Below, piece by piece: positions 7,385 through 34,396 of a stretch of DNA of 64,000 nucleotides; the stretch's first letter is position 1; the number at the start of each line of letters is the position of its first letter. Under the pieces are notes generated by a model, which ran no database searches, was not told the origin of the DNA, and worked only from the letters and a program-made list of their open reading frames with translations. The stretch is from Singulisphaera sp. GP187. Lineage in GTDB: Bacteria > Planctomycetota > Phycisphaerae > Phycisphaerales > SM1A02. The stretch lies in NCBI GenBank assembly GCA_945871915.1, contig CAMBXO010000002.1, positions 1 through 64,000 of the forward strand, written 5' to 3'. The position numbers and the translations under genes are program-made.

Positions 7385-7549
7385 CGATCTCACTTCGTTC
7401 TTAAGCAGTTTTGCCAGCGTGGGAGTCCGAATACCACTCGTTCGGCATGTCCAGTGGATTGGACAACCAGAAAAAGTCTCAGAACAACGAAATTTGAATT
7501 GTTTTATCTATCCCTGCCCTCAGTTTTGGTGCAAACTAGATGTACCTCG

Positions 7550-9664: not shown

Positions 9665-9675
9665 ACGGCACCCAT

Positions 9676-11847
9676 ATGGGTTTCAAGCAATTACTGCAAG
9701 TTTGTTCCAGCAGTGTGAAGCTCATCCGTCCACAATGCGATTGGCAGCAAGCCTGCACGGCCCTCTTCCTCGGTCTTCTTGTTTCCACATCAGTTCATGC
9801 TGCCGTACTTCCGGTCTCCACTCGGCCAGGCGTCGGGGCCATGCCGTACCAGTCCGGTTCCGTGAAGGGTGTCACATTCCGCACATGGGCTCCCAACGCG
9901 CAAGCCGTCAGCGTGGCCGCCTCATTCAACTTCTGGAGCAACACCACCCATCAACTCTCAAGCGAGGGCAATGGCTACTGGTCGGGCGATGTTGTGAATG
10001 CTCCATCAAGTGCGCAATACAAGTTTGCAATCAAGATTGCAGGCGCCTATCAGCAGAAGGCTGACCCGCGTTCAAGGCAACTGGTCAATAGTGTGGGCAG
10101 CAGTATTGTGGTGGATCCCGCTGCGTACACCTGGACCAACACGGACTTTCAGATTCCCAATTGGAACGAATTGGTGATCTACGAAATGCATCTCGGCACC
10201 TTTCATGTGCCCAGCGGCACCACTGCTCCAGCCAACTTTGCCGAGGCCACGGATCGGCTGGATGATCTTCGGGACTTGGGCATCAATTGCATTGAACTCA
10301 TGCCCGTCAATGAATTTCCCGGGGATATTTCGTGGGGATACAACCCGTCGTTCCCCTGTAGCGTCGAAAGCGCCTATGGAGGCGTAAACGAAATGAAAAA
10401 ATTCATCGATGCGTGTCACAGTCGCGGAATCGCCGTGGTGCACGATGTGGTTTTTAATCACTGGGGGCCGAGCGATCTCTCCATGTGGCGGTACGACGGC
10501 TGGTATCAGAACAATCTTGGCGGCATCTACTTCTTTAGCGACACCGTGCAAGCCTCGACACCCTGGGGCCCGCGTCCAGATTTCGGGCGCACTGAAGTGC
10601 GTGAGTTCATCCGTGACAGCGCAATGCAATGGCTGAATGAATTTCGCATGGACGGATTACGGTGGGATGCCACCAAATTCATGCGCCGCACTGATATTGG
10701 TGGAGTGGATATCCCGACCGGTTGGAGCCTGTTGCAGTGGTGCAATGACGCGATTGACCTACCGTTCTCAGGCAAAATCTCTATCGCCGAGGACTTTGAT
10801 GACGATGCCGTCATCACACGTACCACGGCGGCTGGTGGTGCAGGCTTCGACAGTCAATGGGACTCCTTTGTGCACACCATCCGAAGTGTGGTCAGCCCTA
10901 GCAGCGACAGCCTTCGCGACATGAACACCGTACGCGACCTCATTCAAAAGAGTTACAACGGCCAGCACACTCAGCGCGTGATCTTTACGGAGAGTCACGA
11001 TGAAGTGGCACAGAACAACGGCAAATTGCGAGTGCCGTCCCTCATTAGCAGTTCCACCCCTGGTGGGTGGGCCGCTCGCAAACGAAGCACGCTCGCGGCA
11101 GGCGTGATGTTCTTTAGTCCCGGCATTCCAATGATCTTCATGGGGCAGGAGTTCCTCGAGAGCGGGTCATGGGATGCCAATGTTCCGCTCGATTGGGGGA
11201 AGGAGACAACCTATTCCAGCATCCGACAGATGTACAAGGACATGATCGCCCTTCGCAGGAATGCCGGCGGGGTGACCTGCGGACTGACCGGCGCCAACAC
11301 GAATGTGCATCATGTGAACAACTGGAACAAGGTCATCGCGTGGCATCGCTTTGCCGAAGGAGGTCCAGGTGATGATGTCATGGTGGTCGCCAACTTTGGT
11401 GGATTCCCACTTTCGAACTATCGAATTGGATTGCCGCAATCTGGAACCTGGCACTGCAGGTTTCATGGTGACTCGACCGCATATAGCAGCGACTTTGCCA
11501 ATGTAGGTGGGTCCGACATCGAGGCCAGCGGATCGAGCTATGACGGATTGCCCGCCAGTGGAGTCTTTGCTCTTGGGCCATATTCGATTGCGGTGTATTC
11601 ACAGGGTGAGGGCGGCACCGGCAACCCAGCCGACCTTGATGGAAATTGTGTCGTTGATTCGGGCGATGTCGCTCTGATTCTGTTGGACATTGGGTCGGCT
11701 GATGTTCCGGCGGACCTCGACGGTGATGGGTTTGTTTCAACCAGTGACGTTGGATTGCTGCTTCTAGACTTTGGTTGGACTTGTCCCTTACCCGTTGAAA
11801 TGCAGGCTCTTATGGCTTTGCCTTACATTCGAATTGAGTTCGAATGA
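9676..11847 (+). CDS. Secreted GH13 enzyme, 1,4-alpha-glucan branching-enzyme-like, with dockerin-like tail (copy 2)
   Basis: A 723-residue paralog of the preceding gene, sharing the domain order and long identical stretches such as FRTWAPNAQAVSV, GGAGFDSQWD and GLTGxNxNVHHVNN. The start chosen is the ATG at 9676, 11 bp after the upstream stop; an in-frame ATG at 9652 would overlap copy 1. A signal peptide ends near VSTSVHA. The catalytic set is intact: DVVFNH, GLRWDA with Asp331, IAED with Glu372 and SHDEV. Region II reads WDA here and WDG in copy 1, so substrate handling may differ. After the two dockerin-like repeats there is an extra 20-residue tail (starting PLPVEMQAL) missing from copy 1. 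The two are probably a tandem duplication transcribed together. Confidence 0.85.
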   Translation: MGFKQLLQVCSSSVKLIRPQCDWQQACTALFLGLLVSTSVHAAVLPVSTRPGVGAMPYQSGSVKGVTFRTWAPNAQAVSVAASFNFWSNTTHQLSSEGNGYWSGDVVNAPSSAQYKFAIKIAGAYQQKADPRSRQLVNSVGSSIVVDPAAYTWTNTDFQIPNWNELVIYEMHLGTFHVPSGTTAPANFAEATDRLDDLRDLGINCIELMPVNEFPGDISWGYNPSFPCSVESAYGGVNEMKKFIDACHSRGIAVVHDVVFNHWGPSDLSMWRYDGWYQNNLGGIYFFSDTVQASTPWGPRPDFGRTEVREFIRDSAMQWLNEFRMDGLRWDATKFMRRTDIGGVDIPTGWSLLQWCNDAIDLPFSGKISIAEDFDDDAVITRTTAAGGAGFDSQWDSFVHTIRSVVSPSSDSLRDMNTVRDLIQKSYNGQHTQRVIFTESHDEVAQNNGKLRVPSLISSSTPGGWAARKRSTLAAGVMFFSPGIPMIFMGQEFLESGSWDANVPLDWGKETTYSSIRQMYKDMIALRRNAGGVTCGLTGANTNVHHVNNWNKVIAWHRFAEGGPGDDVMVVANFGGFPLSNYRIGLPQSGTWHCRFHGDSTAYSSDFANVGGSDIEASGSSYDGLPASGVFALGPYSIAVYSQGEGGTGNPADLDGNCVVDSGDVALILLDIGSADVPADLDGDGFVSTSDVGLLLLDFGWTCPLPVEMQALMALPYIRIEFE
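11826..11846 (+). other. Inverted repeat overlapping the stop codon of the second GH13 gene
   Basis: CATTCGAA and TTCGAATG form a perfect 8-bp stem around TTGAG; the right arm overlaps the TGA stop at 11845-11847. A second small hairpin (11868-11882) and an A/T-rich one (11889-11909, loop TCCGCGT) follow within 65 bp. There is no classic terminator with a GC stem and T-run here, so these hairpins may serve as the 3' end of the GH13 transcript. Confidence 0.45.
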
Positions 11848-12046
11848 ATTATTGGACATAACTCAAGAAAACTTGCAGTTTTGACATCTCAAAAATCCGC
11901 GTTTTTTGATGGTTTCCTGCTTGGTTCTCCTCAAATCGGTGTCATGATGCGGCATAGATGAATTGAATTCTTTGCCTGGACTGTTCCCACTTTCCCAGTC
12001 GAAGCGGTGTTTGCCCTGTTTCCCCTCGTTCCTTGGAGTTTCCAAA

Positions 12047-12706
12047 ATGCGAAATCTGATTTCTGCGTCTGCAGTCTTGGTTGTGGCCTCTCTTTCGTCG
12101 GCCGATATTTTCACCGATGCGAGTTATGACCTGTTCGAAGACGACCTTCCAAACCTAGACATTACCAGTGTGAATGTTTCGCACACGGAAAGTACTGTCA
12201 CCTTTGATGTGACAACGCGTGGTTTCTCAGACTGGTCGAAGTACATGATCCTGATTAGTTCAGGCGGCCATGGCGATGGCAGCAATGCTTGGAGCCGACC
12301 GGTCAATCAGATGGGCGGCAATGCCAATTTCTTCATTGGAAGTTGGGTTGATCAAACGAGCAACAACAGTCAATTGGTTGCATACCAGAATGGTGGATGG
12401 AACTGGGATCTTCACTTGGGTTTTTCAAATTCCCGATCAGGCAACACCGTGAGTTGGACGGTTTCACGAAATGGAATTGGTGCCGGCGCTTCGAATGCAT
12501 CATTCGACTTTGATGTTCTGACTTCCGGCGGCGGAGGCAACGATGCCGGCGTGGATCACTTGAGTACGCCTAACTTGTCCATGACCCATTGGGGTGCAAC
12601 GAGTTATTCAGGCGCCTTCCTGCATTACAGCATGGCTCCAATTCCAGCGCCCGGTGCTGTGGCACTCATCGGACTTGCTGGCCTTGTGGCTCGCCGCAGG
12701 AAGTAA
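12047..12706 (+). CDS. Exported protein with PEP-CTERM-like sorting motif
   Basis: A 219-residue protein starting at the ATG at 12047, preceded by TTGGAG at a suitable distance; the frame is open back to 11963. A signal peptide (ending near SLSSADI) leads into a beta-rich domain with many Asn, Ser, Gly and Trp residues, suggestive of a carbohydrate-binding or surface beta-sandwich. The C-terminus IPAPGAVALIGLAGLVARRRK has the motif-helix-basic-tail layout of a sorting signal, closely matching the protein that ends at 185. The position between secreted amylolytic enzymes and the glucan operons suggests, by context only, a role in binding or presenting glucan at the surface. No named family was recognised. 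Confidence 0.78.
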   Translation: MRNLISASAVLVVASLSSADIFTDASYDLFEDDLPNLDITSVNVSHTESTVTFDVTTRGFSDWSKYMILISSGGHGDGSNAWSRPVNQMGGNANFFIGSWVDQTSNNSQLVAYQNGGWNWDLHLGFSNSRSGNTVSWTVSRNGIGAGASNASFDFDVLTSGGGGNDAGVDHLSTPNLSMTHWGATSYSGAFLHYSMAPIPAPGAVALIGLAGLVARRRK

Positions 12707-12801: not shown

Positions 12802-15000
12802 TTATGCATTCGCTGGCAGGTAACTCTTTTCAAGGTACTCCGCCACCATCCGATGCGTGTTGAATCGCCCTGGAATGGTGGCGGCACTGTGCAAGGCACG
12901 CTCAAGCCATTTCAGCGGAAGCCCCTCGTCATTTCGGCCGTAGAAATCAGGCACCACCTTGCTCTCAAGCATGTCAAACAAACTCTCCCAATCCAGTGAA
13001 TCCTGTTTCTGGCGATCACTCCCCTCACTGCCATCACCAATGGCCCACCCGTTCTTGCCGTCGTAACTCTCCGGCCACCACCCATCGAGAATGCTGAGAT
13101 TGATGCCGCCGTGCATCGGAGGCTTCATCCCACTTGTGCCACTGGCCTCATGGGGTCTTAGCGGATTGTTCAGCCACACATCACAACCGCTCACCAGCAT
13201 GCGGCCGACATGCATGTCGTACTCCTCGATCAACGCCACGCGTCCCTCAAGCCCCTGTTCCCGTGTCCAGTGATGCACCTCTGCGGCAAGAGCCTGCCCC
13301 TCCCGATCACGCGGATGTGCCTTGCCGGCAAAGACAATCTGCACTGGGCGAAGTGGGTCACAGACAAGACTTCGCAAACGCTCTGGTTGTCTCAGAATGA
13401 GCGGCGCCCGCTTGTAGGTGGCAAATCGTCTTGCAAATCCAATGGTGAGTGCCGTGGGATCGAACGCAAGACCGGCTCGCATCACCGCCTCGGGTGCAGC
13501 CCCCCTACGCCGGGCCTGCCGAACGAGGCGATCACGGACAAAGTGAACGAGTCGTGATCGAAGTTGGGTTCGTAACGCCCAGAATTCTGCTCGATCAGCT
13601 CGCTCCACGGCTGCCCACTGGTCTCGGCCACGCTCAATGACATCTAAGTCCAGACCGACTGATCGCTTCCAGAAAGCCTCGGCCTCGGGTGCAAGCCATG
13701 TGCGCGAATGCACGCCGTTTGTGACATGCCCAATGGGGACCAGCGCAGCATCCGCAACACCATAAATCTGCTGCCACATTTCGCGAGTGACTCGGCCATG
13801 CAATGCGGCAACACCGTTGACATGCTCCGCGGTACGCAAGGCGAGTGCCGTCATGCAGAAGAGCGACTTGGGATCGATCGTTCGTTCAGAACCCATGTCT
13901 AGGAACGCGCGGCGACCAAGGCCGGCCTCACGCCAAGATGGTTCGAGCACGTCGGCAACCATGTCAGGGTCGTACCGATCATGCCCAGCCGGAACCGGTG
14001 TGTGCGTGGTAAAGACTGTGGAGCGACGGATGTACGCCAAGGCATCCTCGAGCCCTTGCCCCTTGCGACGAAGTTGTGCCAATCGGGCAATGCTTGCAAA
14101 GGCAGCGTGCCCCTCATTCAGGTGGAACACGCTCGCCTTGATTCCGAGTGCCCGTAGCGCCATGACGCCACCCACACCGAGCAACACTTGCTGACGCATT
14201 CGAAGTTCAGGGTCACCTTTGTACAAACCTTCCGTCAGTCGGCGATCTTTAGGGCGATTCACCTTTCGGTCGGAATCCAAGAGCACCATCTTGACTCGAC
14301 CAACTCGCATGATCCACAGCCGTGTTTCCACTTTGCGATCACCGATGGGCACGCGAATATCCACACCAGTGTCTTCCAACGGCATGGATCGCGGATCCCG
14401 ATGCGCCTCCATCACGCGAGTCGATCCGTCGGAACGAAATTCCTGCTGGTAGTACCCGTGCTGATACAGAATCCCAACAGCCGTGAGCGGAATGCCAAGA
14501 TCGCTGGCACTTTTCAGGTGATCGCCCGCCAGCACACCCAGCCCACCCGAATACTGCTGCAGGCTTTCGTGAATGGCAAATTCACTACAGAAGTAGGCGA
14601 TGTGCAACTTTTGAGAGCCACCGAACTGCTGTTGTTCAAACCATGGAACCGTTTTGTGGTAAGCGCGGTGGGCGTCTCTCGCCGCCTTCACAAGCCCACG
14701 AAACTCTGCGTCCATACACCGTGCCGCAAAATTTGGCCCCGCGACTTTGCGAAGCACCGCACACGGATCATGGTTGCTGGCCTCCCACACAATTGGATCA
14801 AGCGCCGCAAAGGGTCGTTGAGCCAACTCATTCCAACTCCACCAAAGATCGTGAGACAGTTTGTTCAGATCACGGAGTACCTCCCGGACAACTGATGCTG
14901 GTGCTTGGACCATTTCACCCAAAGCGATGGCGGATGGATCTCTGTTGGCACCAATCACTTTCACTCGTGTGGGTTGTCGAGGCTTTGCGGATGCGGCCAT
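12802..15000 (-). CDS. glgP: Alpha-glucan (maltodextrin/glycogen) phosphorylase, short form
   Basis: GlgP releases glucose-1-phosphate from the non-reducing ends of alpha-1,4-glucans using phosphate and pyridoxal phosphate. The 732 residues carry the N-terminal DUF3417-type segment (NKLSHDLWWSWN) typical of the shorter bacterial/archaeal phosphorylases, then the GT35 catalytic domain with HLNEGHAAF, HTPVPAGHDRY, and FARRFATYKRAPL. The C-terminal EASGTSGMKPPMHGGINLS motif holds the residues around the PLP and phosphate site. The ATG at 15000 was chosen because it sits 7 bp after the malQ stop; the longer frame would run far into malQ. It is the last gene of the amylase-malQ-glgP operon and would channel imported dextrins to glycolysis. 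Confidence 0.94.
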   Translation of the reverse strand: MAASAKPRQPTRVKVIGANRDPSAIALGEMVQAPASVVREVLRDLNKLSHDLWWSWNELAQRPFAALDPIVWEASNHDPCAVLRKVAGPNFAARCMDAEFRGLVKAARDAHRAYHKTVPWFEQQQFGGSQKLHIAYFCSEFAIHESLQQYSGGLGVLAGDHLKSASDLGIPLTAVGILYQHGYYQQEFRSDGSTRVMEAHRDPRSMPLEDTGVDIRVPIGDRKVETRLWIMRVGRVKMVLLDSDRKVNRPKDRRLTEGLYKGDPELRMRQQVLLGVGGVMALRALGIKASVFHLNEGHAAFASIARLAQLRRKGQGLEDALAYIRRSTVFTTHTPVPAGHDRYDPDMVADVLEPSWREAGLGRRAFLDMGSERTIDPKSLFCMTALALRTAEHVNGVAALHGRVTREMWQQIYGVADAALVPIGHVTNGVHSRTWLAPEAEAFWKRSVGLDLDVIERGRDQWAAVERADRAEFWALRTQLRSRLVHFVRDRLVRQARRRGAAPEAVMRAGLAFDPTALTIGFARRFATYKRAPLILRQPERLRSLVCDPLRPVQIVFAGKAHPRDREGQALAAEVHHWTREQGLEGRVALIEEYDMHVGRMLVSGCDVWLNNPLRPHEASGTSGMKPPMHGGINLSILDGWWPESYDGKNGWAIGDGSEGSDRQKQDSLDWESLFDMLESKVVPDFYGRNDEGLPLKWLERALHSAATIPGRFNTHRMVAEYLEKSYLPANA

Positions 15001-15007
15001 GGAACCA

Positions 15008-16459
15008 TCAACTCTCCCGCAAACGACGACCCTTTGCAAGGCGGTTCGTTCTTGCAGCCAAAGCTCGTAGGGTCTTGGCGACACGCTTCGGCAGGAGTTT
15101 GGGCGGCAATCGCCACTTCCAATTTCCATTCGCTCGCCCCGGCACATTCATCCTTGAATCTGGTCCAAGACCCAAAATGTCCTGCATGGCAACGATGGCA
15201 GTGCATGCAGGACTTGCGTAGGCCATCCGAATCAGGGCTTTTTCAGGGCATGGGATCGATCCGCCGGCGATGCTCTGAAATCTTGCCACAGCGCTCCGTG
15301 GAAGGTGCTTCACCCACCCACGGCTGACATCGTTGTCGTGTGTGCCCGGATATACAACGCAATGCTTCGGGTGGTACTGCGGAAGATCACGACTGTCATC
15401 ACTGTAAAACGCGTTGTGGAGAAGTTTCATTCCGGGCAATCCAAAGTCATCCCGAAGTTTTTCCACCGCTGGCGTAACAGCGCCAAGGTCCTCTGCAATC
15501 AGTGGCAAGCGACCAAGCCGGTGCTCAATGGCCGTCAGCAATTCACGCCCGGGTGTGGGTCGCCAATGACCCTTGCGAGCGGTGTGTGCCGTTCCAGGTA
15601 TTTCAAATGCATGCACAAGCCCAACAAAGTGATCAATCCTCAACGCATCGAATCGTTCCAATGCCGTGGCCACACGTGCGGTCCACCACCGAAACTTTTC
15701 GCGTCGATGCGCCGCCCACGCGTAATGCGGATGCCCCCATCGTTGACCATTCGTTGAGAAGCAATCAGGCGGCACACCCGTGACGACCGTTGGCTTTCCA
15801 TGGCGATCAAGCCGAAAGAGTTCCGGTCGATCCGCAACATCCGCTGAATCCAATGTGACAAAGATCGGCAAGTCACCAACCAACTGCACTCCCTTGCCAT
15901 GACACTCGCTCCGAAACTTCTTCCATTGCTTGTCAAATTGGTATTGCAGAAAGGCGTGGAGATCGCAAGAGCCCCCTTCTTTTCCCGATGCAAATGCACA
16001 CCAACCCTGCAACCAATGGCGCGTGTGGCGTACAAACCGCACATAGTCCGGGCTGTGATGCTTTTTCTTTTTTTGAAATGCATCAAAGGCCTCTGCAAAC
16101 CTGGGGCGTTTGAAAGCCCTCGCGGCTGCAAAGTCGCACGGACCTTGTCCAAGTCGCTGCGGCGCTTTGAGTCGCTTGCGAGCAAGCAATCCATCCTCGA
16201 CCAAACGCTCAAGACTGACCAGGAGTGGTTCAGCGGCAAAACTGCTGGTGCTGCTGTATGGACTTGCTCCGTACCCAACGGGACCAATCGGCAACATCTG
16301 CCACAGAGAGATTCCAGCGGATTGACACCACGAAGCAAATGAAACACTTGATCTCCCAAGATCACCCACGCCGTGCGGACCTGGCAAACTTGTGAGGTGC
16401 AACAGGACGCCTGCACGCCGTTGTTGAAAGATTTTCGCGATGCGCCCGGGTGGACTCAT
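15008..16459 (-). CDS. malQ: 4-alpha-glucanotransferase (amylomaltase, GH77)
   Basis: MalQ disproportionates maltodextrins, releasing glucose and making longer chains for phosphorylase. The 483 residues fit bacterial amylomaltases of about 500. The N-terminus has RRAGVLLHLTSLPGPHGVGDLG, then WQMLPIGPVGYGASPYSSTS, the ALRIDHFVGL segment with the nucleophile Asp, LIAEDLGAVTP with the acid/base Glu, and GTHDNDVSRGW. All GH77 signatures are therefore present. The start is fixed by the ATGA overlap with the upstream amylase stop (16456-16459). The cytoplasmic location is supported by the absence of a signal peptide. It is translationally coupled to the amylase and lies 7 bp before glgP. Confidence 0.94.
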   Translation of the reverse strand: MSPPGRIAKIFQQRRAGVLLHLTSLPGPHGVGDLGRSSVSFASWCQSAGISLWQMLPIGPVGYGASPYSSTSSFAAEPLLVSLERLVEDGLLARKRLKAPQRLGQGPCDFAAARAFKRPRFAEAFDAFQKKKKHHSPDYVRFVRHTRHWLQGWCAFASGKEGGSCDLHAFLQYQFDKQWKKFRSECHGKGVQLVGDLPIFVTLDSADVADRPELFRLDRHGKPTVVTGVPPDCFSTNGQRWGHPHYAWAAHRREKFRWWTARVATALERFDALRIDHFVGLVHAFEIPGTAHTARKGHWRPTPGRELLTAIEHRLGRLPLIAEDLGAVTPAVEKLRDDFGLPGMKLLHNAFYSDDSRDLPQYHPKHCVVYPGTHDNDVSRGWVKHLPRSAVARFQSIAGGSIPCPEKALIRMAYASPACTAIVAMQDILGLGPDSRMNVPGRANGNWKWRLPPKLLPKRVAKTLRALAARTNRLAKGRRLRES

Positions 16460-18867
16460 CCACCGCCCTTTGCCGAACGAACCCAAACTTTTCCCGACAT
16501 CTGTGGAATCTTGACCTTTGGAAATCCCTTGTCTTCCGTTTCGCCAAAGACTTGCGTCCATCCTGTTCCAAGCGTTTCCGGAATCGAGATCGAAGCCGCC
16601 GTGCCCGATGCATTCAAGGCGACCAACACTTGCTCGCCGCTTCCTTCCCGAAGGAACATCCACACATCGTGCTCGTCATCTGTGAGAAGGGTTTGAAAAC
16701 TGCCAGTTCGTAAGGCGGGATGCGCGTTACGGAGAGCAATCACCTGCTTGTAATAGGCAAGTTGCTCGTCCATTACGCGATTGTCGGACGGTTTCCCATA
16801 GGGCTCCAGATCCTTCCACAGCATCGGCTTGCGATTGTTGGGGTCACCGGATCCCCACATGCCTACCTCCGTGCCGTACCAAATCATGGGCGCGCCAACA
16901 TAGGTCATCTGAAGCAATGCGAGCAATTGCACGCGGCGGTAATGCTCCTTGCCAGGTTTGGAGGCATCGTACGACTGCACTTCCTGCTCGCGGTTGAGTT
17001 CGTTGTATCCGCGGTCCGGGTTCTTTGCCATGCTGACAACGCGGTCCGTGTCGTGGCTGTCCACAAGATTTTGCATGGCATAGGTGCATTCACTTGGATA
17101 CGCCAAGCGAAGTTCTGCAAGCTTGCGATCAAGTTCACTCACCTTGATCTTGTCCTTGCGATTCAGAATCCATGCAATCGCCGGCTTGGCAAACTCGTAG
17201 TTCATCACGGCATCAAACGCCTTCCCATCAAGCCACGGGTCTGCACGCATCCAGATTTCGCCCGTGATGTAGGCCTGCGGATTGATCTTGCGAACCAGAG
17301 CACACCATTCATGCCAGAACGACATCGGAATCTCATTGGCGACATCCAGCCGCCACCCGTCAATTCCATCTGATGGGTCTCCGTCTCCATCGGGGTCCAT
17401 CCATCGCTTGGTCACTTCAAAGATGTGCTTGCGAGCGGAATCACTGGCGATGCCTTTCGCATCGTTCTTTCGAAAGACGGGTAGTTCGCCAAAACCAAAC
17501 CACCCTTCATAGTCAAAGGGCTCCCATGATTTGACATGGAACCAGTCAGCAAATTTGCTCGCCTGTCGCTTCTCGCGAACATCCATAAATGCGGGGTGAC
17601 GCGTGCCGACGTGGTTCCAGACACCGTCAATGATCACACGGAATCCCATCTTCTTGGCTTCCTTGATGAATTCAAGAAACACACGGTCGCTTTGGGAAAA
17701 GGTCCATGTCGAAGAATCCAAGAGATCTTCCGTTGAGGCGGCTGCCGCGTAATCACCCCCGTGCCCCAAGCGTTCGTCGATGTGCAGATAGTTCGTCGCG
17801 TTGTACTTGTGATTGCTCTCCGCCTCAAAGACCGGAAGCAGATACAACGCTGTCACGCCAAGGTCTTTCAGATAGGGAAGTTGGCTGCGAAGCCCCGCAA
17901 GGTCGCCACCGCATTGCCGCCCAAAGACAAAGTGCTTGTAAAAAGTCTGCCCGTCCTTGCCCTCCCACGAGCTCGGCGCGTACCACTCTTGTTTCCAATC
18001 TCGAGTGGTTGGGCCGTCGTTCGCTGTTGATCCATTGCGAAACCGATCCACCATGATCTGATACCACACTGCGTTTTTTGCCCACTCAGGCGTCGTGAAT
18101 CCACGGTTGGCGGACGAATCAAGTGAATACATTTTGGGGTCACGCACAATGGTCTCGCTGTCTTGAATAAGAAATGTGAAGTCTGTCTTGCCGGGCTCAA
18201 CGGGAGTGATCAATTGCCAGAACTCAAATGGACCCAATCGCCCCGCCTTATCCATTTCCACCCGCCGTCCATCACGGGCGACGAATGTTACATGCTGCAC
18301 ATCGCTGGCAAGGGTTCGGTATCGAATCGTCCAATGATCTCGACCCCGCTGAAGATATTGCGGCTTGGATGGCTCAAATCGGAGTGCCGCCGTTTCCACT
18401 TTGCCATCGCCGACCTTGCCTTTGACCGACTCAAGATTGGCCTCAGGGCCAAGGCGAAGCACGCTGTTAAAGCCACCTTGTCCATCTGGGACATGCTCCT
18501 TGTTCGTTGGGTCTTCGATCCACTTTGTTCCATCCACAACAAACTTGTAGAAGCGAACACCCTCTTGCATTTGGATGGTTGCTGTCCAACGACCGTCGGG
18601 TGATCGCTTCATGGGCGTTAGCTCTCGACTCCATCCATTGAAGTCTCCAGCGAGATTTACTTGCTTCGGGTTGCCCTGCAGTTTCACATTTAAGGTAACT
18701 GCCCACGCCCCGGATCCATCTGGCTTGACCGTTGCACTTGACGGAAGATTTTGAGAAACGGCGCCCGTTTGAACGGACGCTGGCGGGACATCTGGCGGAA
18801 ACTGCTGCCATGTGGGAGCCATGGCACACAGCACGGAGATGGACGCAATCGAAAGACATCTCATCAT
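16456..18867 (-). CDS. Exported GH13 alpha-amylase / neopullulanase-like with CBM48 domain
   Basis: An 803-residue enzyme from the ATG at 18867 (a second ATG follows directly). The N-terminus (MMRCLSIASISVLCAMA) is a signal peptide, so the enzyme is exported, probably to the periplasm. Residues 57-137 resemble an AMPK/CBM48 glycogen-binding domain (VNLAGDFNGWSRELTPM). Residues 160-250 look like the extra N-domain of cyclomaltodextrinases. The GH13 catalytic residues are in IIDGVWNHVG, GWRLDV (Asp508), ITGEIW (Glu537) and VDSHDTDRV (Asp606). The likely reaction is hydrolysis of short dextrins, cyclodextrins or pullulan. It is the first gene of the malQ-glgP operon and is divergent from the sugar importer, with start codons only 21 bp apart. 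Confidence 0.9.
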   Translation of the reverse strand: MMRCLSIASISVLCAMAPTWQQFPPDVPPASVQTGAVSQNLPSSATVKPDGSGAWAVTLNVKLQGNPKQVNLAGDFNGWSRELTPMKRSPDGRWTATIQMQEGVRFYKFVVDGTKWIEDPTNKEHVPDGQGGFNSVLRLGPEANLESVKGKVGDGKVETAALRFEPSKPQYLQRGRDHWTIRYRTLASDVQHVTFVARDGRRVEMDKAGRLGPFEFWQLITPVEPGKTDFTFLIQDSETIVRDPKMYSLDSSANRGFTTPEWAKNAVWYQIMVDRFRNGSTANDGPTTRDWKQEWYAPSSWEGKDGQTFYKHFVFGRQCGGDLAGLRSQLPYLKDLGVTALYLLPVFEAESNHKYNATNYLHIDERLGHGGDYAAAASTEDLLDSSTWTFSQSDRVFLEFIKEAKKMGFRVIIDGVWNHVGTRHPAFMDVREKRQASKFADWFHVKSWEPFDYEGWFGFGELPVFRKNDAKGIASDSARKHIFEVTKRWMDPDGDGDPSDGIDGWRLDVANEIPMSFWHEWCALVRKINPQAYITGEIWMRADPWLDGKAFDAVMNYEFAKPAIAWILNRKDKIKVSELDRKLAELRLAYPSECTYAMQNLVDSHDTDRVVSMAKNPDRGYNELNREQEVQSYDASKPGKEHYRRVQLLALLQMTYVGAPMIWYGTEVGMWGSGDPNNRKPMLWKDLEPYGKPSDNRVMDEQLAYYKQVIALRNAHPALRTGSFQTLLTDDEHDVWMFLREGSGEQVLVALNASGTAASISIPETLGTGWTQVFGETEDKGFPKVKIPQMSGKVWVRSAKGGG

Positions 18868-18882
18868 GCACAGAACTATACT
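18853..18882. promoter_or_regulatory. Overlapping divergent -10 boxes between the amylase operon and the sugar importer operon
   Basis: The sequence ACTATACT (18875-18882) holds TATACT on the plus strand (18877-18882) and TATAGT on the minus strand (18880-18875). The plus box ends 6 nt before the importer ATG (18889) and the minus box 7 nt before the amylase ATG (18867). A partial -35 (AAGACA, 18853-18858, 18-nt spacer) fits the plus promoter; none is clear for the minus. Both transcripts would be leaderless, and the two promoters could not easily fire at once. Confidence 0.5.
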
Positions 18883-18888
18883 GAAGCC

Positions 18889-21294
18889 ATGCACCGCGGA
18901 AGTCGAAACCGCTCGCTTGCGAGCCGATTTCTCGGTGGAGCGCTCATGGTTCTGGCGATTGGGCTGGTCGCGTGGAGTTTTCATCGCGTAGGTTGGCGAG
19001 CGTTTCATTCTTGGCAAAACCATTCGACCGTCGACAAAGAACTTGTGGTCCTCCATTGGTCTGGCGAAGGCGGACCAGAGGAGGACGCGATTGTCGAGGA
19101 CAGTTTACGAGCCTTTGAGAAACTCCACCCAAACGTTCGCGTGCGGCGAATCAATCCAGGCGATGCGGGCAGTTTCTACACCAAATTACAAACCATGCTT
19201 GCAAGCGGCTCTCCGCCCGATGTGTTTTATGTTGGTGCCGAGCGGGTCGCCAGCTTTGCCGACATGGAATTGCTTGAGCCGCTCGATCCATACTTGAGGG
19301 CTGACGCGGAATCCCGTCCTGACGACGCGATCAATCTCGACGGGTTTTTCCCATGCACCGTGGAGGCCTTTCGATATGACGGGAATCGAAGTGGCGCCGG
19401 TGCGCTCTACGGCATTCCCAAGGACTTTACGACTGTCGGCTTCTACTACAACAAAGATATTTTTCTACGCGCTGGCGTTCCATTTCCAAAGGATGATTGG
19501 ACTTGGGACGATTACCTCGCCGCCGCTCGAGCCATTGCAGCCACACGAAATCCGGATGGCGAACCCTATATTGGAAGTGAATTCGTCACCTGGCCCATGA
19601 TGGTGCGCGCGTTTCTTCGCACCGAAGGCGCCGAAGTACGCGGCGGCGACTTCAATGATCTCCGACTCGACGATGAACATACGGTCGCCATCCTCGATCG
19701 ATTGCGTGCGTGGAGGCAGGATGAGGTGAACACGCTGACCAGCGGCCGCAGCAAACTGGCAACGGGTGCCGCCGTTTTTACGACTGGTCGCGTCGGCATG
19801 GCTGGGCCGTTTGGTCGATGGGTGGTGCCGGAATACCGTCGTATTCGCGACTTTGATTGGGACTTTGCACCACTTCCACGCGGCAAAGTTCAGTCCAATG
19901 TCATAGCGACCGTGGCGTGGAGCGTGAGTGCTCAGAGCTCCCACAAGGACGAGGCCTGGGCATTGGTGCGATGGCTTGTCAGTCCCGAGTCGCAAGCCGC
20001 TAATGCCAAATTGGGGCTGGCCATTCCAACGATTCGTTCCGTGGCCGAAAGCCCTTCGTTTCTTGATCCATCTCAGAAGCCCGCCAACGATCGCGGATTT
20101 TTGGACAGCGCGGCGTATGCGTCAGTGGTTGATTGGCCTTCCGATCCACGGTTTGAACAATTGCTCGGTGGCAATCTCGACCGCGCTCTCAAAGTCGGCG
20201 ACCTCACTGTGCCTCAGTCGATTGACTCCTTCATGAAGCAGTGGGCCATTGAAAAAAACAGCCCCTTGGCAAAGTCGGGCTTCCCACGCTTTCCATGGCA
20301 ACCCATCGCATGGACGATTGCTTGTTGCTGCGTAGTGGCCCTCACGACATTTGGTTGGTGGTGCCTCACATCCCGAAACGACCGTGCGACGAGGGACGAA
20401 ACAAAAGCTGGCTGGCTCCTGGCAAGCCCATGGGTCCTCGGGTTCATGCTGTTCATGGCATTTCCGATCGTCATGAGTTTCCTGCTTAGCCTTTCCAAGT
20501 GGCGCGGTGTCGGCCCAATCGAAACGGCCTCGTTTGTGGGGGGAGCCAACTACTTCCAATTGTTGATTCATGACCCTCGCTTTGCCACCAGCTTGAAAGT
20601 CACTTTGTATTACACGCTGATTGCCGTTCCCGGTGGACAAATCCTTGCATTGATGGCCGCACTACTCATGAATCAAAAAGTGCGGGGTATCCACTTCTTC
20701 CGTGCTGCGTGGTATTTGCCAAGTGTGCTCGCCGGTGTTGGCGTAGCCGTTTTATGGCGATGGATCTTCGACACCGATGGCGGCCTTATGAATGCTGCGT
20801 TGCGACCGCTGCTTGCATGTGTTCATCTTGCACCGCCCGATTGGTTTGGAAAGGATGCGGCCGTGTGGGGCGCTCCGGCCTTCGCGATCATGGGATTCTG
20901 GATGGTGGGTGGTGGAATGATGATCTACCTTGCCGGACTGCAAAGTGTTCCCGAGGAACTTATGGAAGCGGCTCGCATCGACCGCCTCGGAAGTTTCTCA
21001 CGCTTCATGCGGATCACCCTTCCAATGTTGAGTCCGGTGATTCTGTTCAACATGATCATGGCGATTATTGGGTGCTTCCAGGTTTTCACACAAGCCTTCG
21101 TCATGACCGGCGGTGAGCCGGGTGATCTGACCCGTTTTTATGTGCTGTATCTCTACAACCAAGCCTTCGAGTTTTATGAGATGGGATACGCCAGTGCGAT
21201 GGCGTGGATTCTCTTACTGATCACCCTGGCACTCACTTTGATCACGTTGCGTGGGAGTCGTGGTCTGATCCATTACGAAGGGATGAAACGATGA
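18889..21294 (+). CDS. CUT1 sugar ABC importer: solute-binding protein fused to MalF-type permease
   Basis: An 801-residue single polypeptide joining two functions normally on separate genes. An N-terminal membrane anchor (residues 15-32) is followed by a family 1 sugar-binding domain at about 52-459 (LVVLHWSGEGG, MLASGSPPDVFYV, GALYGIPKDFTTVGFYYNK). A further membrane helix lies at about 469-492, then a short cytoplasmic loop and a MalF-type permease (507-801) starting AGWLLASPWVLGF. The ATPase-contact EAA loop is EELMEAARIDRLGSFSRFMRITLPM. The binding domain would be tethered in the periplasm beside its channel. The start at 18889 matches the -10 box. The following permease gene overlaps the stop (ATGA). 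Maltodextrin is the likely substrate from the neighbours. Confidence 0.9.
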   Translation: MHRGSRNRSLASRFLGGALMVLAIGLVAWSFHRVGWRAFHSWQNHSTVDKELVVLHWSGEGGPEEDAIVEDSLRAFEKLHPNVRVRRINPGDAGSFYTKLQTMLASGSPPDVFYVGAERVASFADMELLEPLDPYLRADAESRPDDAINLDGFFPCTVEAFRYDGNRSGAGALYGIPKDFTTVGFYYNKDIFLRAGVPFPKDDWTWDDYLAAARAIAATRNPDGEPYIGSEFVTWPMMVRAFLRTEGAEVRGGDFNDLRLDDEHTVAILDRLRAWRQDEVNTLTSGRSKLATGAAVFTTGRVGMAGPFGRWVVPEYRRIRDFDWDFAPLPRGKVQSNVIATVAWSVSAQSSHKDEAWALVRWLVSPESQAANAKLGLAIPTIRSVAESPSFLDPSQKPANDRGFLDSAAYASVVDWPSDPRFEQLLGGNLDRALKVGDLTVPQSIDSFMKQWAIEKNSPLAKSGFPRFPWQPIAWTIACCCVVALTTFGWWCLTSRNDRATRDETKAGWLLASPWVLGFMLFMAFPIVMSFLLSLSKWRGVGPIETASFVGGANYFQLLIHDPRFATSLKVTLYYTLIAVPGGQILALMAALLMNQKVRGIHFFRAAWYLPSVLAGVGVAVLWRWIFDTDGGLMNAALRPLLACVHLAPPDWFGKDAAVWGAPAFAIMGFWMVGGGMMIYLAGLQSVPEELMEAARIDRLGSFSRFMRITLPMLSPVILFNMIMAIIGCFQVFTQAFVMTGGEPGDLTRFYVLYLYNQAFEFYEMGYASAMAWILLLITLALTLITLRGSRGLIHYEGMKR

Positions 21295-22184
21295 CCAGCC
21301 CCACCGTTTCATCCGGAGCCGTCGGTGGCACCATGGCCAAGTTGTTTGCATACGCCGCACTGGTCATCACCACATGCATCATGGTGTTCCCACTCGTGTG
21401 GATGATCTGCGTCAGCCTGCTCACCGCGGACCGTGCACAGTCCGCCACAGTAAGTGGTGATCTCGTACGACTCATTCCAATGGAACCGCAATGGGGAAAT
21501 TTCTCTGAGGCACTTTCGCAGATGGGTTCCGTTCGTTGGCAGGGATTCCTTGATGCGCTGGCCAACTCGGTTGTTGTCACAACGCTCGTGGTTGTCGCCA
21601 CCGTTCTTTCAAGCAGTTTGGTTGGATTCGCCATGGCACGGATCCGGTTCCGCGGTCGCGAAGGATTGTTCCTGCTCATGCTTGCAACCATGATGCTTCC
21701 AGGTCAAGTCACCATGATTCCTTTGTTCATTCTCTTCCGCAGCGTCGGATGGGTCGACACCATCCTTCCGCTCGTCATCCCTGCGTTCTTCGGAAATGCA
21801 TTCTTCATCTTTATGTACCGGCAGTTCGTGGCCCAAATTCCAGAGGCACTGGTTGAAGCGGCCAAGATCGATGGGTGGAGTTGGCTTGGAGTGTGGTGGC
21901 ATGTCATGCTGCCACTCTGCCGCCCAGTGACCGCCATGTGTGCGGTGTTTACATTCATTTATGTGTGGAACGATTTCATGGGACCCCTCATCTATTTGCA
22001 TTCCGATGAGCAAGCCACGCTTGCCGTTGCCCTGAATAGTTTTCGCAATCAATATGGTGGCATCAACAAAGTCAATCTTCTGATGGCGGCAAGCCTGATC
22101 ACCATGATTCCGTGCATTATTCTCTTTCTTGCGGCGCAAAGGCAATTCATCGAGGGTCTTGGAAAGGGCGCCGTGAAAGGCTAA
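21291..22184 (+). CDS. Sugar ABC transporter permease, MalG type
   Basis: A 297-residue inner-membrane permease with six predicted helices. The family-typical features are the periplasmic segment after helix 1, the FAMARIRFRGREGLF turn, MLPGQVTMIPLFILFRSVGWVDT, and the EAA motif EALVEAAKIDGWSWLGVWWHVMLPL that docks onto the ATPase. It partners the permease half of the upstream fusion protein. The ATG at 21291 overlaps the fusion stop codon (ATGA), so the two are translationally coupled; longer in-frame starts would sit inside the fusion gene. The ATPase gene follows 11 bp downstream. Confidence 0.93.
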   Translation: MTSPTVSSGAVGGTMAKLFAYAALVITTCIMVFPLVWMICVSLLTADRAQSATVSGDLVRLIPMEPQWGNFSEALSQMGSVRWQGFLDALANSVVVTTLVVVATVLSSSLVGFAMARIRFRGREGLFLLMLATMMLPGQVTMIPLFILFRSVGWVDTILPLVIPAFFGNAFFIFMYRQFVAQIPEALVEAAKIDGWSWLGVWWHVMLPLCRPVTAMCAVFTFIYVWNDFMGPLIYLHSDEQATLAVALNSFRNQYGGINKVNLLMAASLITMIPCIILFLAAQRQFIEGLGKGAVKG

Positions 22185-22195
22185 TTGGAGAACCT

Positions 22196-23341
22196 ATGGC
22201 CAGCATTCAACTGAATCGTGTCGGCAAGATTTACCCCGGTGGCGTACACGCCGTGCAATCCGTAGATCTCTCCATTGAGCACGGCGAGTTCGTCGTTCTT
22301 GTTGGTCCCTCAGGCTGCGGCAAGAGCACGCTTTTGCGGATGATTGCGGGCCTTGAAACAGTTTCTTCGGGAACGCTCTCTATTGATGGCGTGGTGATGA
22401 ATGATGTGCCGCCTCAAGACCGCGATATTGCCATGGTGTTTCAGAATTACGCGCTCTATCCGCACATGGATGTCCGGACCAACATGGCGTTTGGGCTTCT
22501 TCGTCGCCGCCGGTTTCCGAGTCGCTTGAAAGCCTGTTTCTCATCGGCTTATGCAGCGTCTCGCCGTATCGAACGATCCGACATTGATGCACGAGTGATG
22601 GCGGCGGCCAACACCCTAGGCATCGAATCACTTCTCGCTCGAAAGCCGGCCGCTCTTTCCGGAGGACAGCGTCAGCGTGTGGCGGTTGGGCGAGCCATTG
22701 TTCGGCAGCCCAAAGTTTTTCTCTTTGATGAGCCGCTTTCAAACTTAGATGCCAAACTTCGCGTGGAAATGCGAGCCGAACTCCGCATGTTGCATCGGCG
22801 ACTTGGCGCCACCATGGTGTATGTCACCCACGATCAGGAAGAAGCGATGAGTCTTGGAGATCGCGTGGTGGTGCTTCAGGACGGATGGACACAGCAAATC
22901 GCCACGCCGAGAGAGATTTATGAAACACCCGCCAATCAATTCGTGGCCGGGTTTGTTGGAACGCCCACCATGAATTTGTTTCAGGGAACTCTCGCTTGCG
23001 AGTCTGGACGCATGGTCTTTACAAGTAGCCACTTGCGTCTTGAAGGCTCCGTGCCATCGTGGCAGCCGATTGTTCCATCGTTGCCACGATCCTGTTGTCT
23101 TGGAGTGCGTCCTGAGCATGTGCAATTAGTCGCGTCCGGCGGAACTCCCGCGACCATTGAAGCCGTAGAACATTACGGCGACCGCATGGATGTGGTGATC
23201 CGATCCTGTGGCCATCGCATCGTTGCTCGTACTGGGCCCGACGCAACGCTTCGAGACGGCGGTGCCGTAGCCGTGCAATTTGATCTTGCACGAGCCCACC
23301 TCTTTGAATCGACCAAGCCCTTCGCTCGACTTATTGGCTGA
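22196..23341 (+). CDS. Sugar ABC transporter ATP-binding protein, MalK/MsmK/UgpC type
   Basis: A 381-residue ATPase for the sugar importer. Walker A is at residues 37-45 (GPSGCGKST), the Q-loop is MVFQNYALYPHM, the signature LSGGQRQR is at 154-161, Walker B is FLFDEPLSNLD, and the switch is VTHDQEEAM. A C-terminal OB-type regulatory domain (about 240-381, with GVRPEHVQL) is present as in MalK. The ATG at 22196 follows TTGGAG by 5 nt. Unlike typical members, about 25 extra residues (103-127, RRRRFPSRLKACFSSAYAAS...) separate the Q-loop region from the helical domain. A terminator follows the stop. The domain set supports a carbohydrate substrate. Confidence 0.93.
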   Translation: MASIQLNRVGKIYPGGVHAVQSVDLSIEHGEFVVLVGPSGCGKSTLLRMIAGLETVSSGTLSIDGVVMNDVPPQDRDIAMVFQNYALYPHMDVRTNMAFGLLRRRRFPSRLKACFSSAYAASRRIERSDIDARVMAAANTLGIESLLARKPAALSGGQRQRVAVGRAIVRQPKVFLFDEPLSNLDAKLRVEMRAELRMLHRRLGATMVYVTHDQEEAMSLGDRVVVLQDGWTQQIATPREIYETPANQFVAGFVGTPTMNLFQGTLACESGRMVFTSSHLRLEGSVPSWQPIVPSLPRSCCLGVRPEHVQLVASGGTPATIEAVEHYGDRMDVVIRSCGHRIVARTGPDATLRDGGAVAVQFDLARAHLFESTKPFARLIG

Positions 23342-28185: not shown

Positions 28186-29373
28186 CTAGCGTGAGCCTAA
28201 CGGCATGATGCTGCTCTCATCATGACGCCGAAAGTCTAGAGATGGTTTGGGCGACGCATGAGCTTCGAGTTCTGGAGTGCGCCAACATCCCACCCACCGA
28301 TTGGGTTCAATCTGGTGCAGGCAATACGCATCGCGTTCATGTGCCAACTTTGGACGAGCCTCAACCGGCATATGGGGCCACCATGGAATGACCCCCTTTT
28401 CGCTACCCGGAAGTTTGCGAAACTCCGCCGGATTATTGGTGACATCTTCCACCGTGGTGAGTCGATGCATTTCATTGCGAAGCCCGGGAATGCTGGAAAA
28501 GAGACCACGCGTATACGGATGCATCGGGCGATCGAAGAGTTCAAAGACGGGTGCATATTCGACCACTCGACCGGCATACATCACGCACACCACATCCGCA
28601 TTTTCTGCAACAACCCCAAGGTTGTGAGTGATCAACATGATGCCCATGCCGCGATCCCTCTGAAGTTGCCGCAACAAATCCAAGATCTGCGCCTGAATCG
28701 TGACATCCAGCGCCGTGGTCGGCTCGTCAGCCAGAAGAACCCGTGGCTGACACGCTAACGCCATGGCAATCATGACTCGCTGACGCATGCCACCGCTAAA
28801 TCGATGGGGATACTCCGCAAGCAAGTGGTGTTTGTTTTTCGTTAGAGCAACAAGATCATTCTGGTAACGCTCTTTCAAACGGTTGTAAATTCCCACTTCT
28901 TCAAGGGCACCAATGGCTCGTTCCACGGCTTGCTGCGGTGTGAGTTTCTGGTGTAAGAGAATGGCCTCCAGAATCTGGTTGCCAATCGAATAGACCGGAT
29001 TCAGGCTTGTCATGGGCTCCTGAAAAATCATGGCGATCTTGCTTCCTCGAACGGAGAGCATTTGCTTCTCGCTCATCGAAAGCAAATCGTTGCCGTCGAG
29101 CAAGATGGAGCCGCGATCCATTCGACCCGGCGGCCGCGGAATCAGTTGCATGGCACTCATGGCCGTCACGCTTTTTCCGCAGCCGGACTCTCCAACCACG
29201 GCAAGCGTCTGCTTTGGAAACAGAGTCATCGTGACGCCCGCCACCGCCTGAATGCGAGGGCCACCCGGATTGCTTGCGTTGTCGAAACTCACGGCAAGAT
29301 CCGCGACTTCCAGCACAGGACGATTCAAAAGAAGGCTCTCGCCCATTGGAGACTTGTGGACAGCGGGCTGCAT
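28186..29373 (-). CDS. Oligopeptide/dipeptide ABC transporter ATP-binding protein, OppD type
   Basis: A 395-residue ATPase for the adjacent peptide-type importer. It has Walker A VGESGCGKSV, Q-loop IFQEPMTSLNPVY, signature FSGGMRQRVMIA, Walker B VLLADEPTTALD, and the OppD/DppD C-terminal hallmark RPMHPYTRGLFSSIPG. About 15 extra residues (KNKHHLLAE region) precede the signature. Only two cysteines remain near the end (YCLH...GCW), so the usual four-cysteine iron-sulfur site of OppD/F looks incomplete. No OppF-type second ATPase is adjacent, so the protein may act as a homodimer. The start overlaps the upstream permease stop by 1 nt (TAATG). Confidence 0.9.
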   Translation of the reverse strand: MQPAVHKSPMGESLLLNRPVLEVADLAVSFDNASNPGGPRIQAVAGVTMTLFPKQTLAVVGESGCGKSVTAMSAMQLIPRPPGRMDRGSILLDGNDLLSMSEKQMLSVRGSKIAMIFQEPMTSLNPVYSIGNQILEAILLHQKLTPQQAVERAIGALEEVGIYNRLKERYQNDLVALTKNKHHLLAEYPHRFSGGMRQRVMIAMALACQPRVLLADEPTTALDVTIQAQILDLLRQLQRDRGMGIMLITHNLGVVAENADVVCVMYAGRVVEYAPVFELFDRPMHPYTRGLFSSIPGLRNEMHRLTTVEDVTNNPAEFRKLPGSEKGVIPWWPHMPVEARPKLAHERDAYCLHQIEPNRWVGCWRTPELEAHASPKPSLDFRRHDESSIMPLGSR

Positions 29374-30863
29374 TAGTGAGCCGCCTTTCGAAGTTTGGGG
29401 TCAATCGCGTCGCGTAAGGCTTCACCAAGCATGTTGTAGGAGAGTACGGAGAGAAAGATGGCAAGCCCTGGGAATACAGCAAGCCACCAGACAAAGGTTC
29501 CGGTGCTGGCCGTTGCACTTGAAAGCAATTTTCCCCAACTGGCTTGCCCATCAGGCCCGAGTCCCAAATAGGAAAGCGTTGCTTCAATGGAAATGGCTGC
29601 GGCAATTCCAAAACTGGCATCAACCAGAACCGGCGTAATTCCATTGGGCAGCATGTGGCGAAAGAGAATGGTGCGTAACGGAAGACCAACAGCCTGCGCC
29701 GCCTGCACAAATTCCTGGTTGCGAAGCTTCAAAAATTCCGCGCGAGTAAACCGTGCCGCACCCGTCCACGAGAACATGCCGATGATCGCCATCATCACAT
29801 AGGTGTTGCGAGGCAGCACACCCGCTGCAACGATGAGCAGAAACAGCAACGGAACCGCCATGAAGACTTCCACAACGCGGAACAGCAGCAAGTCCACCCA
29901 TCCGCCGAAGTAGCCCATGATCGCACCAATGGTGACACCAATCAGCACGCTCAGGCCCGTCGACACCAGACCAATCGAAATCGACAGCCGACACGCCCAC
30001 ATCAATTGTGCAAGCACATCCCCGCCGAGTGCATCCGTACCCAAGATTGTTCGTCGCTTTCCAAATGGCGTTCCCTTCCAACTTGCAAGGCTTGGGAGTT
30101 CTTCGACGCGTGAGCCCGGCGGTGCCGCCACCATGTCACTGCGAGTTGCATGCGGCGACCACGGAATGGGTGCCCAAACGCTGCGCACCGCACCCGAGGC
30201 TTCGTCATCGAGATACCGATCAAAGTTCACCAACGAGGCGCCACCAGAGACAACCGAAATGCTTCCGCTGATGGCTGCAACCATGCTCACCGCCACCACC
30301 CGTCGCCACAACGAATCGATGGTGGGAATCGCTAGAGCGAGTGCAGAAACCATCACCGCAATTCCTGCTGCGATGGTCCACTCGCCACTGCTTGTGCGTG
30401 CGATGGATTTCAACCAATCCGAGCGAATTGGTTCTGCTGCCCATGCCAGAATGGTTGGAATCAACACAACAAGCACGCCAGCCTGCACCGCTGCCGTGAC
30501 GAACATTCCCAATCGCTGCGAGCGTGAAAGCGCGCGAGGGCCGAGTGTGATCCATGGAAGTCCAACACAAAATCCAATCAGAAGGAGCCAGTCAGTCGCA
30601 GACAAGTTTGCCAGGAGCGGCCACGAACGGCTGATCACTTCGCCTTGAGGGCCGAGTCGCTCCTCGATCCATGGGTGTGCATTGGCAAGCAGCGGAGAGA
30701 AAATGGCAAAGAACGCAAGAATGGAAATCCATGTCAGGCCGAATCTCGCACCGTGACGCTTGAGCACTCGGCTCCACGCGTCCGCCCAAAAGCCCATTGC
30801 GCGAGTCTGTCCAATGCCTCGCATGGCTTCGATTCCAGAGATGACTTCGGGTGCTTCACTCAT
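29373..30863 (-). CDS. Oligopeptide ABC transporter permease, OppC type, with enlarged N-terminal region
   Basis: A 496-residue permease; typical OppC/DppC proteins have about 290-310 residues. The C-terminal core (about 270-490) is canonical: FGKRRTILGTDALGGDVLAQLMW, GAIMGYFGGWVDLLLFRVVEV, and the EAA loop EFVQAAQAVGLPLRTILFRHMLPN. Between the first helix and that core lie some 190 residues with about four additional predicted membrane segments and a polar stretch. This extension is unusual and its role is unknown. The start overlaps the OppB stop by 8 bp. It would pair with the OppB-type protein encoded just upstream. Confidence 0.88.
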   Translation of the reverse strand: MSEAPEVISGIEAMRGIGQTRAMGFWADAWSRVLKRHGARFGLTWISILAFFAIFSPLLANAHPWIEERLGPQGEVISRSWPLLANLSATDWLLLIGFCVGLPWITLGPRALSRSQRLGMFVTAAVQAGVLVVLIPTILAWAAEPIRSDWLKSIARTSSGEWTIAAGIAVMVSALALAIPTIDSLWRRVVAVSMVAAISGSISVVSGGASLVNFDRYLDDEASGAVRSVWAPIPWSPHATRSDMVAAPPGSRVEELPSLASWKGTPFGKRRTILGTDALGGDVLAQLMWACRLSISIGLVSTGLSVLIGVTIGAIMGYFGGWVDLLLFRVVEVFMAVPLLFLLIVAAGVLPRNTYVMMAIIGMFSWTGAARFTRAEFLKLRNQEFVQAAQAVGLPLRTILFRHMLPNGITPVLVDASFGIAAAISIEATLSYLGLGPDGQASWGKLLSSATASTGTFVWWLAVFPGLAIFLSVLSYNMLGEALRDAIDPKLRKAAH

Positions 30864-32448
30864 AACTCACCCTCGGATCGGCCACGGCGTACAAGATGTC
30901 TGCTACCAGCAATGCGGCGACATTGACCACTGCAATCATGAGCACATCGGCCAGAATCAGGTCTCGATCGTTATTTGAAATGGCGTCAAGCACCAAACTT
31001 CCCATTCCCGGAACGCTGAAAATGCGTTCCACCACCACGCTTCCACCAAGCATGGCCGGAAAGATTCCGACAAACATGGTGATCAACGGAAGCAAACTAT
31101 TTCGAAAGACATGTCGAACCACCACATCGTTGCGAGGCACCCCTTTGGCTTTAGCGGTTCGGACATAGTCGGCGCTCAAGTTGTCCAGCATGCTGGCGCG
31201 AGTTTGCTTCGACAGAATGGCGAATGATCCATATGTCAGGCACAGCACTGGCAACGCGACATGCCAGAGCAAATCGCCAAGCCATCCGACCTGCCAGACA
31301 CCGGCAACATCTCGACTCGGCAAAAACGGCATCGCGTCCGCAGTGGTTGCGTGCAGTCCGCTCACAGGAAAGAGACCCAAATACTGGTTGTTGGCAAGAA
31401 ACCCAATCGCAAAAACTCCAGCCAAAACTGTGGGAATGGAGTACAGCGATAGATAGAGAACACCCGTCAGCAGATCGAACCAGTTTCCCTTTCGAACACT
31501 TGCCATCACGCCCGTTGGCACCGCGATCAGATACGAAATCGGAAACGCAATCAGGTTGATCAGCAGCGTGACCGGCAACGCATCGATGATCAAGTCCCAC
31601 ACGGGTCGATTTTTCGAGAACGCCACCCCAAAGTCTGAGGTGTCAAGCGTGATCACATCGGGAATGATCGGCACGCCACTCTGTGGATAGGGATTCGCCA
31701 TAAACGCAATCGTCGCGCGTTGCCGTGTCTCTTCTGCACGCGACCACTTGGTGTGCATCGAGTGAACAGCCTCGAACAATTTCAATCTTGCGTCCGCAAG
31801 TTGGCGGACACGCTCCGTAGCCTGCACGGACGGTTGTGATACCGCTTCGCGTGCAGCGGATTCCTGTGCGGCAATAAGCACCGGAAGGAGATCATCAAAG
31901 TCCGACGGCTTGGCACCTCCCTTTCCATCGAGCCGCCCCACAAGCGGTGGCCCCACCACTCGTGCGACATCCGCCAGTGCATCCCGAAATATTCTCATGG
32001 AACCCACATACTCCCGCCGTGATCCCTCCGAATCTCGTTGCAGTAATTTGAATTCGGGAATCACCTGATCACCGGTCGAAGGCGTGAACACAACCTGCGG
32101 CTTGCGTGGAGGTGGAAAGACGCTCGTAAGTGAAGGATCGGGAATCGGCCGCGGAATCGAGATGCGTTCGCCCCGCGGCGTGCGCACATCTCGCTGTCCA
32201 AATTTAATCGGTGAAATACGGCTGAGCCATCTCACATACTGCACGATGACTGGATCGCTCAAGCCGTATCGATCCTCAAGATAGGCCTGTTGCTGTGCAA
32301 TGCCTGTGGTGTTGCCCTGCCCGCCCGCTGCTTGCATGGAGGCACCGATGCCGCCGGGTGCAAGTGCAAGAAGCATGAACACCATCAACGTGATTCCCAG
32401 AAGCGTGGGAACCATGAACAGCAGACGTCGAACAAGGTAGGTGACCAT
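30856..32448 (-). CDS. Oligopeptide ABC transporter permease, OppB type, with large periplasmic insert
   Basis: A 530-residue permease; OppB/DppB proteins usually have 305-340. Residues 1-25 (MVTYLVRRLLFMVPTLLGI) and the C-terminal half from about 290 on (ALPVTLLINLIAFPISYLIAVPTGV, DYVRTAKAKGVPRNDVVVRHVFRNS) are standard. Between helix 1 and helix 2 is an insert of about 200 mostly polar residues, rich in charged helices (residues 150-260), which would lie in the periplasm. The insert could contact the membrane-anchored binding protein encoded upstream. The start is 15 bp after that gene's stop. Confidence 0.88.
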   Translation of the reverse strand: MVTYLVRRLLFMVPTLLGITLMVFMLLALAPGGIGASMQAAGGQGNTTGIAQQQAYLEDRYGLSDPVIVQYVRWLSRISPIKFGQRDVRTPRGERISIPRPIPDPSLTSVFPPPRKPQVVFTPSTGDQVIPEFKLLQRDSEGSRREYVGSMRIFRDALADVARVVGPPLVGRLDGKGGAKPSDFDDLLPVLIAAQESAAREAVSQPSVQATERVRQLADARLKLFEAVHSMHTKWSRAEETRQRATIAFMANPYPQSGVPIIPDVITLDTSDFGVAFSKNRPVWDLIIDALPVTLLINLIAFPISYLIAVPTGVMASVRKGNWFDLLTGVLYLSLYSIPTVLAGVFAIGFLANNQYLGLFPVSGLHATTADAMPFLPSRDVAGVWQVGWLGDLLWHVALPVLCLTYGSFAILSKQTRASMLDNLSADYVRTAKAKGVPRNDVVVRHVFRNSLLPLITMFVGIFPAMLGGSVVVERIFSVPGMGSLVLDAISNNDRDLILADVLMIAVVNVAALLVADILYAVADPRVSYE

Positions 32449-32463
32449 GCAGTCGCTCGATGG

Positions 32464-34362: not shown

Positions 34363-34396
34363 GGGACGAGCAGGGTAGCGGAGGCTGGGATACTGG

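Follow-up and report, generated by a model that had tools for sequence, protein, structure and literature searches.

In E. coli MalEFGK2, the binding protein MalE is free in the periplasm, and in the mycobacterial importer LpqY-SugABC, LpqY is a separate lipoprotein. Covalent attachment of binding domains to the permease is found in GlnPQ and OpuA, whose permeases are homodimeric, so that each transporter carries two or more binding domains. These two systems are described as members of other ABC subfamilies (PMC8025302, PMC11065425). Within CUT1, a MalE-MalF fusion belonging to a maltose/maltodextrin ABC transporter has been characterised structurally and functionally and is described as transport-competent (Licht et al. 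2019, Res Microbiol 170:1-12, as cited in PMC7756565, PMC9045158 and PMC7060353).

We analysed a window of 64,000 nucleotides from Singulisphaera sp. GP187 (assembly GCA_945871915.1, contig CAMBXO010000002.1, positions 1 to 64,000), in which the original prediction, made from the letters alone, had proposed a sugar importer with its binding protein fused to the MalF-type permease. That prediction named GlnPQ and OpuA as systems that join binding domains to permeases, but it overlooked the CUT1 fusion described by Licht et al. (2019). The gene studied here, malEF, is thus a new example of a CUT1 MalE-MalF fusion, an arrangement already described in another bacterium.

Results

The malEF gene runs from an ATG at 18889 to a TGA at 21292-21294 as a single open frame of 801 codons without internal stops (Table 1). 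Pfam assigned SBP_bac_1 to residues 67-370 (1.7e-38), with a further match to SBP_bac_8, and BPD_transp_1 to residues 585-786 (2.1e-12). Hydropathy placed hydrophobic helices on either side of the binding domain, at residues 10-28 and 476-494. A binding domain and MalF therefore lie in one polypeptide, as in a MalEF-type fused transporter. By sequence, the permease is MalF-like without being the E. coli MalF equivalog, scoring 45 bits against a cut-off of 392 in the NCBIfam maltose permease model NF008232.

Table 1 Features of the malEF locus (positions in the window)
Feature	Position	Strand	Basis
malEF, fused CUT1 binding protein and permease, 801 aa	18889..21294	+	M1 and length kept in 13 congeners; Pfam; model
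N-terminal transmembrane anchor, about residues 10-30 (model helix 2-44)	18916..18978	+	Hydropathy, AlphaFold2
Family-1 sugar-binding domain, about residues 48-460	19030..20268	+	Pfam SBP_bac_1, structural matches of model
Second transmembrane helix, residues 470-494, chain returns to cytoplasm	20296..20370	+	Hydropathy, model, MalF superposition
MalF-type permease core, residues 499-790	20383..21258	+	BPD_transp_1; SugA 7caf Z 25.2; E. coli MalF Z 20-24
TATACT, -10-like hexamer ending 6 bp before malEF ATG	18877..18882	+	Conserved among congeners; putative promoter
malG, second CUT1 permease subunit	21291..22184	+	BPD_transp_1 4.5e-19; UgpE/MalG-like; ATGA overlap
malK, ATPase with TOBE domain	22196..23341	+	ABC_tran, TOBE_2; UgpC subfamily 441 vs cut-off 432 bits
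Secreted GH13 amylase, N-terminal glycogen-binding domain, divergent	16456..18867	-	Pfam Alpha-amylase, AMPK1_CBM; syntenic in most relatives
malQ, 4-alpha-glucanotransferase	15008..16663	-	Glyco_hydro_77; TIGR00217 malQ above cut-off
Alpha-glucan phosphorylase	12802..15147	-	TIGR02094 above cut-off; Pfam Phosphorylase

We placed the start at 18889 because M1 and the 801-residue length are shared by all 13 congeners and because every congener examined has the conserved TATACT hexamer 6-7 bp upstream of the ATG. This placement of the hexamer suggests a leaderless malEF transcript. The divergent amylase gene probably starts at 18867 on the minus strand, about 21 bp from the malEF start. Across 18864-18889, a leaderless malEF start and overlapping divergent promoters are probable.

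Elsewhere, malE and malF commonly occur as separate, neighbouring genes, and a sequencing or assembly error could in principle have merged two such genes. However, the 13 congeneric orthologues, source genome included, aligned without gaps over 801 columns, with the same length and frame in independently assembled genomes. Median dN/dS among these congeners was 0.25 for the anchor, 0.06 for the binding domain, 0.20 for the junction and 0.04 for the permease. Since the values are low everywhere, including at the junction, the whole of malEF evolves as coding sequence under constraint, and purifying selection on the junction argues against a merger. In the wider family (121 genomes sampled, 70 with a strong malEF match), about 60 genomes carried the whole fusion in a single frame, and several further copies were fragments that apparently end at contig edges. 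Three genomes had just a separate permease, 41-45% identical and paralogue-like. No orthologue in the form of two separate genes was seen among the close relatives in this sample; congener G003 was considered as such a case and rejected, as its two pieces split at contig ends. On the strength of the congener alignment and the family copies, we rejected a frameshift or misassembly, which we regard as extremely improbable. Judged from these comparisons, the fusion is real and old within its lineage. The 801-residue frame thus withstood the check for a frameshift and the search of related genomes that had been proposed along with it.

To model the protein, we ran AlphaFold2 on 26 fused sequences. 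The malEF model (pLDDT 83.6) comprised a helix at residues 2-44, the binding domain at 50-456, a helix at 470-494 and the permease, so that Pfam, hydropathy and AlphaFold2 agree on the anchor, second helix and domain order first read from the sequence. The modelled binding domain matched sugar-binding proteins with Z of 37-43, including Lmo0181 (5f7v, Z 43.3) and T. maritima MalE3 (Z 39.5). Among its top structural matches were binders of alpha-glucan, arabino-oligosaccharide, beta-glucan and glycerophosphodiester, with no one sugar singled out. Modelled alone, the C-terminal part (pLDDT 84) matched SugA with Z of 25 and E. coli MalF with Z of 20-24. The SugA alignments began past the helix at 470-494, and those to E. 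coli MalF began inside it, at MalF residues of about 36-41, where TM2 of MalF lies. The predicted fold therefore has a likely layout of TM1, a binding domain replacing the short P1 loop of MalF, TM2 and a six-helix core, for which the superposition of the junction helix on MalF, judged from the first and last aligned residues alone, is suggestive. Such a helix is topologically required, because the binding domain lies outside and the MalF core is entered from inside.

A second hydrophobic helix was present at the junction in all 16 fused proteins examined, and in several distant members of this set the N-terminal anchor was weak or signal-peptide-like. These short N-termini, which provide no firm anchor, indicate that the N-terminal tether is not universal, and they would fit a fused protein that is cleaved after synthesis. 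A free binding protein would likewise coexist with the fusion if the permease were also translated from an internal start. We found no convincing internal start ahead of the permease: the in-frame ATG, GTG and TTG codons all sit inside the binding domain or the helices and none has a Shine-Dalgarno-like sequence, and an internal start for the permease was rejected. With the TM2 junction helix also retained in every fused member examined, an additional free binding protein from either route seems very unlikely, and a tethered domain remains our preferred reading.

As originally predicted, genes for MalG and MalK follow malEF, malG starting at 21291 in an ATGA overlap and malK at an ATG (22196) 11 bp past the malG stop. 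The operon thus provides two different BPD_transp_1 permease subunits, a MalK-type ATPase with TOBE encoded by one gene and presumed to form a homodimer, and a family-1 oligosaccharide-binding protein that is fused rather than free, the components of a CUT1 importer. The only other family-1 binding-protein match in the genome fits SBP_bac_6 better, leaving no second sugar-type binding protein.

Maltodextrin binding and import is the likely task of the operon. This assignment rests on gene order, because neither the permease nor MalG reaches any NCBIfam equivalog cut-off and the family models assign MalK to the UgpC subfamily. The divergent amylase has a signal-like N-terminus, and the order phosphorylase-MalQ-amylase/MalEF-MalG-MalK is retained in relatives down to about 51% identity and in most of the loci L049-L057 (freshwater and related Planctomycetota) as far as their contigs extend. 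The same transporter might instead import a different sugar or several oligosaccharides, with the starch genes adjacent through shared regulation only. The family models do leave the substrate unresolved, and the nearest solved binding proteins take arabino-oligosaccharides and cycloalternan; yet the phosphorylase, MalQ and the secreted amylase remain opposite in most relatives at 56-71% MalEF identity, and we consider another substrate unlikely.

Other genes near the starch locus include two adjacent, overlapping GlgB-like branching-enzyme genes on the plus strand (7454-9664 and 9652-11847), each with CBM_48, alpha-amylase and C-terminal domains. A 247-aa secreted-looking protein (11963-12706, plus strand) has a PEP-CTERM-like tail, PAPGAVALIGLAGLVARRRK, and no Pfam matches.

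We found single-frame fusions in Planctomycetota (about 27 copies among 392 genomes sampled from the phylum) and in at least nine other phyla, named as in records that are nearly all metagenome bins: Armatimonadota, Nitrospirota, Verrucomicrobiota, Gemmatimonadota, Poribacteria, Hinthialibacterota, Sumerlaeota, Fermentibacterota and, in one MAG, Bacteroidota. Outside the fused clades, most relatives have two genes, which bears out the generality that the binding protein of a CUT1 system is, as a rule, free or lipid-anchored. In a plasmid search, the top match, from Ensifer, consisted of two genes (450 and 318 aa), and a plasmid search with a divergent fused query returned separate gene pairs wherever genes were annotated. 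We built a permease tree from 64 fused and 62 separate rows, sampled by similarity to a fused query and so no guide to frequencies; its labels changed at least seven times, and well-supported branches force three of these changes. A single fused clade was disfavoured once long branches were removed, at a borderline p-AU of 0.038. This tree suggests several fusions or losses. On balance, a family-1 domain with an added helix was probably fused onto CUT1 permeases several times, giving stable fusions that are widespread in Planctomycetota, Armatimonadota, Verrucomicrobiota, Gemmatimonadota, Nitrospirota and several candidate phyla and that replace a pool of free binding protein with a tether at a fixed one-to-one ratio.

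Unusual domain arrangements were also seen elsewhere. Genome G037 carries a second, very divergent binding-domain/permease fusion (L152:2101-4461, minus strand) alongside the orthologous one, and a 610-aa frame at G000:C6:78381-79910 holds two BPD_transp_1 domains, that is, both permease halves of another importer. On the minus strand of the window, a peptide-type ABC operon (28186-35509) encodes SBP_bac_5, three BPD_transp_1 permeases and an ATPase; its OppB-like (530 aa) and OppC-like (496 aa) permeases have roughly 230-250 extra residues inserted between their N-terminal part and the core.

Discussion

By its description, the transporter of Licht et al. (2019) resembles the one studied here in being CUT1, in carrying a single binding domain on MalF and in its maltodextrin context, and differs in lineage, malEF belonging to Planctomycetota. 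A literature search on Pfam-architecture terms found nothing. The organism of the described fusion is reportedly Bdellovibrio bacteriovorus; our genome scan returned no Bdellovibrio homologue, and the PDB sequence search returned no chain so named. With E. coli MalEFGK2, the locus shares the MalF, MalG and MalK families and a junction helix that superposes at the start of the aligned region of MalF, although the large P2 loop of MalF is absent here. SugA of LpqY-SugABC is the closest solved permease fold.

We infer that the locus very probably encodes a CUT1 (type I) importer, most likely for maltodextrins, composed of MalEF, MalG and two MalK and operating by a tethered-domain cycle. TM1 and TM2 would keep the binding domain in the periplasm, in the place of MalF's first periplasmic loop, and the domain would close around oligosaccharide made by the secreted amylase. 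Once loaded, it would dock onto its own MalF-MalG channel; ATP would close the MalK dimer, releasing the sugar, and the domain would undock yet stay attached. As MalF and MalG form a heterodimer, each transporter would have exactly one binding domain.

High affinity at low nutrient is argued to require more binding proteins than transport units (Norris et al. 2021, PMC8168909), an excess that the fusion forgoes because the ratio is fixed at one to one. The tether may remove a diffusion step and perhaps make turnover faster. The original prediction held that it would suit a low or steady supply; present uptake models point the opposite way.

These findings describe a large, naturally occurring family of sugar importers in Gram-negative bacteria that carry their binding domain on a one-to-one tether. 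Annotators of phyla with such fusions should neither label an 800-residue "sugar ABC transporter permease" a chimera nor split it. As an excess of free binding protein is impossible in fused importers, they offer natural tests of affinity models.
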